In this document: piece by piece, positions 6,140-21,337 of the stretch
Numbering within the stretch: the first letter of the stretch is position 1
Layout: each line of letters begins with the position of its first letter
NCBI GenBank assembly: GCA_031279675.1
Contig: JAITIB010000038.1
Location: 1 to 37,165 of the forward strand
From: Puniceicoccales bacterium
GTDB lineage: Bacteria; Verrucomicrobiota; Verrucomicrobiia; Opitutales; UBA953
Length of the DNA stretch: 37,165 nucleotides
Direction: 5' to 3'
The notes under the pieces: model-generated
Seen by the model: only the letters and a program-made list of their open reading frames with translations
What the model was told of the DNA's origin: nothing
Database searches by the model: none
Program-made: the position numbers and the translations under genes

Positions 6140-7696
6140 ATGAGCATCCCCAACGCCACCGCCACCCGAGGCACGGGCAACTACCGCTGGACGATCTGCG
6201 CCCTCGTGTTTTTTGCCACCACCATCAACTATCTGGACCGGAATGTGCTCGGCCAGTTGAAAGACACGCTTTTGCCGCTGATACGCTGGGAGGAGGGCAA
6301 TGTCATCCGCGCTGCGCTCGACACGCTTGCGGGGTGGGGGTGGATCAGTCCCTTTGACTGGACGAGGAACAGTGGCGACATTGAGTATTCGTGGGTGGTG
6401 AATGCCTTTCAGGTTTCCTACGCGGTCGGTCTTCTGGTCATCGGTCGTTTGATAGATCGGCTGGGGAGCAAGCGTGGTTATGGGGTGGCGCTCACGGGCT
6501 GGAGTTTTGCCGCCATCGGGCACGCGTTCTCCTATGGTTTTTTCTCGTTTGCCGCCTGGCGCGCCGCGCTTGGCCTCACGGAGGCCGGGAATTTTCCCGC
6601 CGCGCAAAAGGCCGTCACGGAGTGGTTCCCGAAGAAGGAGCGCGCCCTTGCCACGGGCATTTACAACAGCGGCACGAATGTCGGCGCGATCGTCGCCCCG
6701 CTTGTTGTCCCGCTTTTGGCCGGCTCGCTTGTCCTTGGGTGGAGCTGGCAGTGGGCTTTTGTGATCACCGGGGCCGTGGGTTTGCTTTGGCTGGTTTTCT
6801 GGTATCGCATCTACAAGACTCCGGGGGAGAAACTTGAGGAGGGGACGCTTTCCCGCGCCGAATACGATTACATCCACAGCGACCTTGACGAGCAGGTGGA
6901 GAATGCCGATGGAGCGGGGCAGGGGCGGGTGCCGTGGAAAAGGTTGCTGGGTTACCGGCAGACGTGGGCGTTCTTTTTCGGGAAATTTTTCACGGACCCC
7001 GTGTGGTGGTTTTATCTCTTCTGGCTCCCGGGATTTCTTTCCGACGAGAACAAGCGAAAGATTGCCGTGGCTTATCCCGACGGGCTGCCCGACGGGGTGA
7101 CGCTTGATGCCGTGCTGAGGGAGCTGCAAAATTTCACGAGTGTTTTTGGCGGGACGCCCGGGCTCGACAAACTCGGCGTCAAGGGTCTGGTCGTGTGGCC
7201 GGTTGCCGTTGCCGTCGTCTATACAATCTCCGTGGTCGGGAGTGTGTGCGGCGGTTACTTGCCAAAGCTTCTTGCCGACTCCGGAATCATGGTTGGGCGG
7301 GCGCGAAAGATGGCGATGTTTGTCTATGCGTTGATGCCATTGACGGTGCTTGCGGCGATGTGGCTCGGGGGTGTCAGCACTTGGCTGGCCGTGGGTGTGA
7401 TCGGGCTCGGCACGGCGGCGCACCAGGCTTGGTCGGCGAACATTTTCACGACTGTTCCCGACATGTTCCCGAAGAAGGCCGTTGGCTCCGTCACGGGCAT
7501 CGGCGGGATGGCGGGCACGCTCGGCAGTGTGATTTTCCAGCCCGTTGTCGGCCTCCTGCTGGCCCACTACAAGGCCGCGGGCGATCCGACGAGCGGCTAC
7601 GCCATTGTGTTTGGCTACTGTGCCGTCGCCTACATCGGCGCCTGGTTGGTCATGCACGCTTTTGCGCCGCGTTTTGAAAAAATCACTGACCTTTGA
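6140..7696 (+). CDS. MFS transporter (hexuronate/anion:cation symporter-like)
   Basis: ATG at 6140 (MSIPNATAT...YRWTICALVFFATTINYLDRNVLGQLKDTL); multiple TM segments; GLTEAGNFPAAQKAVTEWFPKKERALATGIYNSGTNVGAIVAPL motif of the ExuT/ACS family. Confidence 0.88.
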   Translation: MSIPNATATRGTGNYRWTICALVFFATTINYLDRNVLGQLKDTLLPLIRWEEGNVIRAALDTLAGWGWISPFDWTRNSGDIEYSWVVNAFQVSYAVGLLVIGRLIDRLGSKRGYGVALTGWSFAAIGHAFSYGFFSFAAWRAALGLTEAGNFPAAQKAVTEWFPKKERALATGIYNSGTNVGAIVAPLVVPLLAGSLVLGWSWQWAFVITGAVGLLWLVFWYRIYKTPGEKLEEGTLSRAEYDYIHSDLDEQVENADGAGQGRVPWKRLLGYRQTWAFFFGKFFTDPVWWFYLFWLPGFLSDENKRKIAVAYPDGLPDGVTLDAVLRELQNFTSVFGGTPGLDKLGVKGLVVWPVAVAVVYTISVVGSVCGGYLPKLLADSGIMVGRARKMAMFVYALMPLTVLAAMWLGGVSTWLAVGVIGLGTAAHQAWSANIFTTVPDMFPKKAVGSVTGIGGMAGTLGSVIFQPVVGLLLAHYKAAGDPTSGYAIVFGYCAVAYIGAWLVMHAFAPRFEKITDL

Positions 7697-7792
7697 GCGT
7701 GCCCTCCCTTTGGAGGGCGGAGGGACGAAAAATGCGGTTCGTGGAATCTTTTGTGTTGATTGTGCCGCGTGAATCCCCCTACCTTGCGCGCC

Positions 7793-8485
7793 ATGGACTT
7801 TACCCCCATTTTCTATCGTTTGGCCGCCCTGTGCGGAATGCTTCTTTTTCAGGCGTCCGCGCTCGCCCAGCAGCAACCTGCCGCCGCGGGCAGGGCGGCT
7901 GTCGAGGTCAAGGCTGTGCGCTTCGCCCAGACAAAGGTCAGCAATACTGTGCTGGTGCCGATGACCCGCGTGGAGGTGCAAATCCTCGCCAAGGAAAACG
8001 CGAGGCTTCTTGAGGATCCCAAGGCGATTGTCCCCAACAAGAGCTGGGTGGACAAGATCAAGGTCACTGTGACGATCGCCTACGAGCTGCCCGCAGCAAG
8101 AAAGGCGGCATCCGGTGGCGCGGCGGCCAGTTTGGAGGATCGGTATGCCTTCTACCGTTCCTCTGTCACCATCATGACGATGGAGAAGAACTCCACTGGT
8201 TCGGTCTTCTTCTATCTTCCGGGGGAAATCGTAAAGCGCGACCAGCTGAAGCAGGAGCCTTACGCGTATGCGATTGATTTGGAAGTGGACGGGACTTCCC
8301 TCCCGCCGTCCAAATCCAGTGTGAGCCGGCTTTTGCTGGCCGAGGCGCAATACAAGGCGTTCAAGGAAATGGCGGACCGTGGCGTGTTGAGCACCACCGG
8401 AGTTTTGCGGCCACAATACTTGGTGGCGACGGAAGCGCTGCCTGCGTCCACACCCACGTTGATACGCGAGGACGCCGCCCGTTGA
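7793..8485 (+). CDS. Amuc_1102-like pilus-associated protein
   Basis: Signal peptide (MDFTPIFYRLAALCGMLLFQASALAQQ); first gene of a five-gene locus ending in a secretin; order and features match the Akkermansia Amuc_1102-1098 type locus. Confidence 0.7.
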   Translation: MDFTPIFYRLAALCGMLLFQASALAQQQPAAAGRAAVEVKAVRFAQTKVSNTVLVPMTRVEVQILAKENARLLEDPKAIVPNKSWVDKIKVTVTIAYELPAARKAASGGAAASLEDRYAFYRSSVTIMTMEKNSTGSVFFYLPGEIVKRDQLKQEPYAYAIDLEVDGTSLPPSKSSVSRLLLAEAQYKAFKEMADRGVLSTTGVLRPQYLVATEALPASTPTLIREDAAR

Positions 8486-19929: not shown

Positions 19930-20697
19930 CTACACATTTGCCGCCGGCACCGCATTTTCGACCTCCTCCGGCTCCTCCCCCTGCGCCTTCCGCGCCCTGC
20001 GCGCCGCCGCCCGCTGCGCGATCAACGCATGGAAGTGTTTGATGACCCGGTTGAGCGCGCGCACGCCACTGTTCAACGACCCCGGCGCCACCAGCCCATT
20101 GCGCGTGTCCACACTCTGCATGAACTCCCGGTAAACCTCGTTCATCGCCCCCCGCGCCTTCCTGACACTGATCGTGGGCCGCGCCACCTTTTCCTCATTT
20201 CGCTGCATCGAGAGGCTCTTGTACCGCGCCTGCGCATCCCCCAGCATCCCCACCAGACCCGTCAAATCCAGCAACGCCACCTCCGGCGCAACATCCGCGC
20301 GGTGCAAATCACTGAGCAGATTATCGATCGTCCCCGTCCGCTGCGCCCGAGACACCCCCGTCAAACTCCCATAATGCGCGAGCAGATTGCGAAGACTCAC
20401 CGCCGCCGCGTGCCGCGCCGCGTCCGGATCGTGAAGACTGCACCGGATGCGCAGGATAAGATTCCTGTGCAACGCCGCCCGCATCCGGTCCGTCCCACGG
20501 ATATGCGCGGTCAACGCACTCTTGCGCACCACCTCAAGCGTGTGCAACAGCGTCTCAAAGCGAGATTTGAACACCGCCCACAACGGAGCAAAGTGCTCGC
20601 TCACCCCAAAGTTCTCCGCCGTCACAATGGTCTGGCTCATGAACGTATGGTATTCCTCGTTACGCAATGAAGGCAGATGGATCGTCTTTATTTGCAT
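19930..20697 (-). CDS. DUF6261-like protein, function unknown
   Basis: ATG at 20697 giving MQIKTIHLPSLRNEEYHTFMSQ...; mostly helical; the LRNEEYHTFM N-terminus and ...ARYKSLSMQRNEEKVARP... region resemble DUF6261 proteins known mainly from Bacteroidota (recognised from memory, not searched). Ends in a basic RAAARRARK then acidic tail. ORF-track start 20748 runs into the repeat region. Confidence 0.72.
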   Translation of the reverse strand: MQIKTIHLPSLRNEEYHTFMSQTIVTAENFGVSEHFAPLWAVFKSRFETLLHTLEVVRKSALTAHIRGTDRMRAALHRNLILRIRCSLHDPDAARHAAAVSLRNLLAHYGSLTGVSRAQRTGTIDNLLSDLHRADVAPEVALLDLTGLVGMLGDAQARYKSLSMQRNEEKVARPTISVRKARGAMNEVYREFMQSVDTRNGLVAPGSLNSGVRALNRVIKHFHALIAQRAAARRARKAQGEEPEEVENAVPAANV

Positions 20698-20780
20698 CGT
20701 ATCTCGCAGCTTGACTTGAACATGCGATTGTTTTTTGGGGAAAACCACGCCGTGGACAAGCCCTTTTTGAACTCAAAACG

Positions 20781-21149
20781 ACCTGCTCCTGCCGAGCACA
20801 TTCCAAAAATATTTTTTTCGCACCTGCTCCCCGCGAGCAACTCGCTCCCAAAAATAATTCGCATCCGCTCTTCCAGAGCAAGTCTGACAAAAAAATTATT
20901 GCCATTTGCTCGCCACGAGCAAGTCACTCAAAAATATAAGCGGCACCTGCTCCAAAAGAGCAAGTCCCGCAAATTTTTTACACCAACTTGCTCTCAGCGA
21001 GCAACTCTCCAAAAAATTTTGGCCACACTTGCTCGCCACGAGCAAGTAGCTTCCAATTCAAAATGGAATTTGCTCGCGGCGAGCAAGTCCAAAGCATTTC
21101 CAAAAGCTCCTTGCTCTTCGCGAGCAAGCATGTAAAAAAAATCCCCGCG
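20781..21149. repeat. Periodic array of nine 41-bp hairpin units (GCTC-N5-GAGC core with variable AT-rich segment)
   Basis: The TGCTC/CGCTC core begins at 20784, 20825, 20866, 20907, 20948, 20989, 21030, 21071 and 21112, exactly 41 bp apart each time. GCTC-N5-GAGCA is present in 9/9 units. Confidence 0.95.
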
Positions 21150-21190
21150 ACTTTCCCCCGCGAACGACAGTTCTGCAAACAAGGACGCGC

Positions 21191-21337
21191 CCAGTTATGG
21201 AGTGCGGGACTTCAGTCCCGCTTTGGAGCGGGGGATTCATCCCCCGCGTCCCCGGACAAGGACAACGCCCCGGATGGACAAACGGCGATGAATCGCCTTC
21301 GCGAAAGCGGCGATGAATCGCCGCACTCCATAACTGG
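21191..21337. repeat. 147-bp palindromic MITE/REP-like element
   Basis: Perfect 17-bp terminal inverted repeats CCAGTTATGGAGTGCGG...CCGCACTCCATAACTGG, with internal mini-hairpins gcgggacttcagtcccgc, gcgggggattcatcccccgc and two copies of ggcgatgaatcgcc. Confidence 0.85.

Follow-up and report, generated by a model that had tools for sequence, protein, structure and literature searches.

Sequence comparison across Bacteroidota and the phylum of the window (the window being the whole 37,165-nt stretch of DNA analyzed) establishes that DUF6261 genes form one genetic unit with tandem arrays whose period is exactly 41 or 42 bp. Such a period equals four helical turns of DNA, and this geometry outlasts the sequence that carries it. 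What might such arrays be for? The explanation that we favor, with a probability of about one half, is that DUF6261 acts as a symmetric oligomer that binds the arrays, both at its own promoter and where they are dispersed through the genome.

The array in the window and its neighboring gene

The array consists of nine 41-bp units at positions 20781–21149 (no strand assigned), and its delimitation draws on the sequence itself, pattern counts, and the conservation of stem and length. Each unit is a palindrome, (ACTT)GCTC-N5-GAGC(AAGT), plus an A/T-rich spacer. The original prediction had described nine units with exact 41-bp spacing, which re-reading of the sequence bore out, and Tandem Repeats Finder (TRF) gives a period of 41 for the window. 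The motif that it had named, GCTC-N5-GAGCA, is present 17 times when both strands of the window are counted, always within the array; in shuffled versions of the window, the expected number is 0.44 and the maximum is 4. The spacers are related to each other, reading roughly AAGT-N4-AAAAATTTTT with an A/T-rich middle, and this shared consensus indicates that the units descend from one another rather than being independent, guide-like inserts. A degenerate tenth unit (CTTTC...GACAG; 21150–21190, no strand assigned) sits in the same 41-bp register. Its register and motif were judged by eye, as was its resemblance to units that flank a second array in the same genome, on contig C103.

Next to the tenth unit, at 21191–21337, is an element of 147 bp bounded by terminal inverted repeats CCAGTTATGGAGTGCGG...CCGCACTCCATAACTGG. 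The element begins exactly one 41-bp step past the last array unit. One of its ends is also found near a third array, on contig C96 (L005:7044), and nowhere else in the 310 kb of the genome scanned.

The coding neighbor of the array, which the original prediction had left unnamed, is a DUF6261 gene (PF19775; 19930–20697, minus strand, ATG at 20697) encoding a protein of 255 aa. The protein matches the Pfam family with E-values of 6e-27 to 8e-27 and scores 94.5 bits, where the curated cut-off is 27, placing it within DUF6261. The array lies directly 5′ of this gene, 84 bp from the start codon, and the intervening 83 bp (20698–20780, no strand assigned), identified by position, are presumed to be the promoter/5′ region. 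DUF6261 is single-copy in this genome. The window protein is basic, with a pI of 10.2, whereas the family median is only 6.9. Its AlphaFold2 model is all-helical (pLDDT 83.7), as is that of a Prevotella homologue (pLDDT 74.7), and two residues, D70 and R73, are invariant across 33 homologues. Foldseek searches of PDB and viral libraries returned no relative at E ≤ 0.001, with coiled-coil noise only, and profile searches of PDB sequences likewise returned no relative. Sequence and structure searches revealed no recognizable DNA-binding fold, and Pfam searches no match to a transposase, HUH, or nuclease family. The scanned neighbors in the window are LemA, an HZS_alpha-domain protein, a secretin, and a Na/H exchanger; none is a ParA/ParM/TubZ protein or a replication initiator. 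Pilus genes of the Amuc_1098/1100/1101 type, recognized in the window by family matches below the curated cut-offs, point tentatively to a verrucomicrobial host.

Pairing of DUF6261 genes with phased arrays

The pairing emerges from searches in both directions. In one, three-unit GCTC arrays were sought in 85,000 species. The matches listed, which are a lower bound, include exact 41-bp arrays in many Bacteroidota, among them Phocaeicola abscessus, Segatella baroniae, Prevotella oulorum, Hoylesella marshii, and Imperialibacter. Several of these arrays lie directly 5′ of a DUF6261 gene. In the reverse approach, DUF6261 genes were gathered by protein family and their flanks were then read for arrays. 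A tandem array accompanies nearly every gene and is seldom anywhere but on its 5′ side. Among 74 such loci, a period of 41 is found upstream in 39 and a period of 42 upstream in 24, while 4 have a 41- or 42-bp period downstream. With a longer stretch compared and 46 periods tested, 41 or 42 is the top upstream period in 65 of 76 DUF6261 regions, where about 3 would be expected (p of about 1e-76 if all periods are taken as equally likely and relatedness is disregarded, the loci not being independent by descent). In downstream flanks, the same periods rank first in 8 of 73 cases, close to chance. Proximity tells the same story: 59 of the 62 arrays within 600 bp of a DUF6261 gene have a 41- or 42-bp period, and the remaining 221 kb contain 2 arrays. 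There are exceptions, with the array lying downstream at four DUF6261 genes and several genes having no array.

The pairing extends to genomes that were found through the protein only. Arrays of 41 or 42 bp lie beside most DUF6261 genes in other families of the window’s phylum, and beside about 5 of 8 genes in other members of Hoylesella’s phylum. The twelve Bacteroidota genomes richest in loci were reached via their GCTC arrays, such that their copy numbers are biased by ascertainment towards array carriers; most DUF6261-linked arrays in these genomes have palindromes quite different from the GCTC core. Exact 41-bp GCTC-N5-GAGC arrays are also found in Planctomycetota, Terrilactibacillus, Virgibacillus, and Polyangia (L105, L087, L128, L099). 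No DUF6261 gene lies within the 8 kb examined at these loci, which appear to be other 41-bp repeats.

Within the genus of the window genome, the distribution is very patchy. The original prediction had named the lack of such an array in related strains as counting against it, and the comparison gives a mixed picture: most congeners have neither the gene nor a GCTC array (DUF6261 is absent from seven of them), and one sister genome, G006, has 16 matches to DUF6261 and a degenerate 42-bp array at two of the four loci read. The window DUF6261 clusters with those of G006 with 100/98 support. An empty-site comparison was attempted in the congeners, which show about 70% identity at lemA and share no upstream synteny, and hence no insertion boundary can be read.

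Conserved geometry and changing sequence

The genome from which the window derives (1.57 Mb in 134 contigs, 80% complete) contains two further nine-unit 41-bp arrays with the GCTC-N5-GAGC core, at C96:7284–7652 and C103:5892–6260. Alignment of the 27 units of the three arrays yields 391 substitutions over 24 comparisons of adjacent units, yet none of the eight stem positions differs and no indel occurs. With this many substitutions, some indels would be expected if there were no selection on length. The suggestion that spacing is under selection is therefore strongly supported, all the more so given the 41- or 42-bp period beside DUF6261 in distant taxa. The invariance of GCTC/GAGC across the three arrays suggests that, in this genome, the sequence itself is read. 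Could the arrays instead be neutral minisatellites that lie near DUF6261 by chance? The Bacteroidota arrays are homogenized by what looks like slippage-like turnover, as a minisatellite would be, but this explanation is strongly disfavored and has next to no likelihood in our estimation: a single period class spans phyla, the arrays are nearly exclusive to DUF6261 flanks and genomes, the dyads are conserved, and diverged arrays have no indels.

The C103 and C96 arrays, which stand apart from any DUF6261 gene, are composite, in that their flanks carry units of unrelated sequence in steps of about 41 bp (L006:5646–5891 and 6261–6383; L005:7140–7230 and 7632–7908). Directly after the array and its flank, the end of the C103 contig (L006:6384–6534) resembles, by eye, a fragment of an IS5-type transposase. 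A 21-bp palindromic unit, GGGGGAACTCCCCCAAAGGCT, also forms arrays of its own (L359:17357–17679 on G000:C98 and L357:1–145 on G000:C94). Since 21 bp is half of 42 bp, these may be half-period versions of such arrays.

The symmetry of the arrays goes beyond the palindromic core. A second, weaker dyad lies at exactly half the period (20.5 bp where the period is 41 bp, 21.0 bp where it is 42 bp), with pairing of 0.37 and 0.42, respectively, versus about 0.24 elsewhere. The array thus reads almost alike on both strands, and a dyad recurs roughly every two turns of the helix. Stem mismatches comprise 57 G-T and 57 A-C variant types, meaning that there is no strand bias, and compensating changes within arrays show no excess (14 vs. 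13.9 expected). These observations bear on the possibility that the array is transcribed and that processing of a leader 5′ of DUF6261 yields RNA hairpins or guides similar to those of TIGR or CRISPR systems. A hairpin formed by one RNA strand should favor G-U pairs, and so the lack of G-T bias argues against an array of RNA hairpins; by contrast, it is what would be expected for a double-stranded DNA site. The array strand does fold better than shuffled sequences (z = −9.9), but this is expected of any palindrome. In TIGR systems, stem-loop arrays can likewise accompany a small helical protein (PMC12045711), but the second dyad makes the arrays described here strand-symmetric, no covariation is seen within them, and in most species the units are homogenized, such that they would not encode diverse guides. 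Database comparisons point the same way. There are no Rfam matches over the window, no match between the variable segments and 50,697 phage records, and no PADLOC match to cas or other defence genes in six neighboring window proteins. Pfam gives no Nop family match in the window DUF6261 at E ≤ 5, and neither Nop, Prp31, nor IS110 is among the listed DUF6261 structure matches. Of the options originally proposed, the hairpin RNA array thus finds no backing in strand bias, compensatory changes, or Rfam, and the guide array fares no better, with a single spacer consensus and no phage, defence-gene, or Nop-domain match. A CRISPR or other guide array was rejected on these grounds, and the transcribed-array explanation as a whole is very unlikely.

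While the geometry is fixed, the sequence is not. The array sequence turns over quickly, and the 41- or 42-bp period, the palindrome, and the second dyad persist. Pairs of DUF6261 proteins with 82–85% identity can have unrelated arrays. Where two changes occur in the cores of related arrays, symmetry is kept in 45 of 66 cases, with one third expected (members of a family are not independent), suggesting that cores change symmetrically and are homogenized along each array. Three other associations were considered and set aside. Covariation of array and protein sequence is weak (Spearman 0.15, Mantel p 0.001) and driven by close pairs. The choice of 41 or 42 bp is not inherited with the protein, with nearest neighbors sharing a period in 34 of 56 cases, near chance. 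A link between an even or odd palindrome center and a 42- or 41-bp period is a trend only (p = 0.056).

One way to account for free sequence within fixed geometry is structure-specific recognition, with DUF6261 or another factor reading cruciforms extruded at regularly spaced palindromes, such that any palindrome would work if symmetry and phase are kept. The cores, which are free but symmetric between arrays, are consistent with this idea, as are the unrelated arrays beside near-identical proteins and the persistence of period and dyads. On the other hand, the stems are short, often 5–8 bp, and poorly suited to extrusion, the invariant stem in 27 units at three loci of the window genome points to reading of the sequence, and there is no compensatory excess within arrays. 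We consider cruciform recognition improbable.

Dispersed arrays, candidate mechanisms, and known systems

Many arrays are solitary. A 1.2-Mb sample of H. marshii contains 47 arrays with these periods (38 of 41 bp and 9 of 42 bp) versus 15 for all other periods from 25 to 70, and most H. marshii arrays lie a long way from the nearest DUF6261 gene. The first 800 kb of this genome contain 29 arrays; in 400 kb from three genomes without DUF6261 there are none, as against the roughly 15 that the density in H. marshii predicts. Many solitary arrays are intergenic, with an excess in convergent gaps (14/33 vs. 65/321, p = 0.007). They fall into families with common spacers and differing palindromic cores, and some families include a DUF6261-linked member. 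In H. marshii, distinct cores outnumber DUF6261 copies. Homology between arrays of the same family mostly stops near the array edges, and no consistent terminal inverted repeat or target-site duplication was established around the arrays. One solitary H. marshii array (L115) has a transposase-like ORF nearby.

These dispersed copies raise the main rival to DNA binding, namely selfish dispersal in the manner of REP/RAYT elements. DUF6261, directly or with host enzymes, would propagate and expand the arrays; solitary arrays would be non-autonomous copies; and the 41- or 42-bp period would reflect the copying machinery rather than regulation. Several features fit this proposal: the many solitary arrays per gene, the homology that ends near array edges, the intergenic sites with their convergent-gap excess, the fast sequence turnover, and the multi-copy, patchy occurrence of DUF6261 (one Prevotella has 23 matches and one congener has 16, with none in most other congeners). 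Against it, DUF6261 has no transposase, HUH, or nuclease family match and is seldom carried by plasmids or phages, target-site duplications were not established, and the old arrays in the window genome have preserved both length and stem without exception, which needs ongoing constraint. On balance, selfish dispersal seems unlikely, albeit worth taking seriously.

How would binding by DUF6261 work? First, the all-alpha protein would form a two-fold symmetric oligomer on double-stranded sites. Second, a strong dyad every four helical turns, together with the weaker dyad at the two-turn midpoint, would generate a regular nucleoprotein stretch on one face of the DNA. Third, binding upstream of its own gene would make DUF6261 autoregulatory. 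Fourth, binding at dispersed arrays would be an action in trans, which may serve to insulate gene ends, organize DNA, or maintain the arrays. A single DUF6261 protein would thereby act on all three arrays of the window genome, which have one invariant core in common. We infer binding, autoregulation, and trans action at solitary arrays from the features listed here. Those in favor of binding are the pairing itself, the dependence of arrays on DUF6261, the constraint on length and stem, the dyads, the lack of strand bias, the symmetric core changes, and the basic window protein. Those that count against it are the lack of a DNA-binding fold, the median pI of 6.9, the surplus of cores over DUF6261 copies in H. 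marshii, and the downstream or absent arrays. Unrelated arrays beside proteins with 82–85% identity are awkward for a strictly sequence-specific binder; given the fast turnover of units, specificity must either evolve together with the protein or depend mainly on geometry and symmetry. Of the three options in the original prediction, putative operators on one helical face fit best, given the two-fold symmetric sites, the half-period dyad, the four-turn spacing, and the position 5′ of one gene. A bolder proposal, which we make tentatively, is a new class of genome-wide DNA-organizing or self-spreading system, with fixed geometry and symmetric cores that are exchangeable as array-specific addresses. 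A gene family of up to about 20 copies would then maintain dozens of dispersed nucleoprotein arrays.

Why does the pairing matter? DUF6261 is a multi-copy family annotated without a function, found in oral and gut Bacteroidota and beyond, and the pairing gives it a first function hypothesis. The phased, rapidly evolving array offers a clean experimental handle on the protein. It is unusual for geometry to be conserved while sequence changes, and this has a bearing on the ways in which bacterial repeats are built, homogenized, and spread. The open literature searched contains only incidental mention of DUF6261/PF19775 and nothing equivalent to 41- or 42-bp palindromic arrays in Bacteroidetes. 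Hence, the pairing of DUF6261 with a phased palindrome array is apparently undescribed.

Several known systems share parts of this architecture. REP/RAYT systems (REPtrons) also combine a gene adjoining palindromic repeats with many dispersed, gene-less intergenic copies, and such copies are found here too (two in the window genome, 47 in 1.2 Mb of H. marshii). However, RAYTs belong to the HUH tyrosine transposases and a GTAG tag marks REPs (PMC3733652), whereas only DUF6261, which has no such domain, adjoins these palindromes in place of a Y1 (HUH) transposase, and its arrays have a fixed helical period of 41 or 42 bp. The BrickBuilt MITE minisatellites of Porphyromonas gingivalis are likewise intergenic tandem-repeat elements in a Bacteroidota genome; they have 23-nt repeats, ISPg-like terminal inverted repeats, and no associated gene family (PMC4596501). 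TIGR-Tas systems also place tandem palindromic units beside a small protein gene, but Tas proteins carry a Nop domain and TIGR arrays give rise to strand-specific dual-spacer RNAs with box C/D (PMC12045711), while DUF6261 has no Nop match and its arrays are strand-symmetric and mostly homogeneous. A palindrome-like repeat and a spacer of constant length are also features of CRISPR arrays, but the spacers of DUF6261 arrays share a consensus, and neither a defence-gene match in the scanned neighbors nor a phage match was found. Iteron and centromere arrays, such as RepA iterons, ParR-parC, and TubR-tubC, are tandem sites in helical register. DUF6261 differs from their binding proteins in having no homologous binding domain and no motor or replication partner among the scanned neighbors, and its arrays are chromosomal and multi-copy, with a sequence that turns over while the period is kept. 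Nevertheless, DUF6261 arrays are also tandem, in helical register, and 5′ of a gene, and this likeness suggests that the gene product may bind the array and regulate its own expression.
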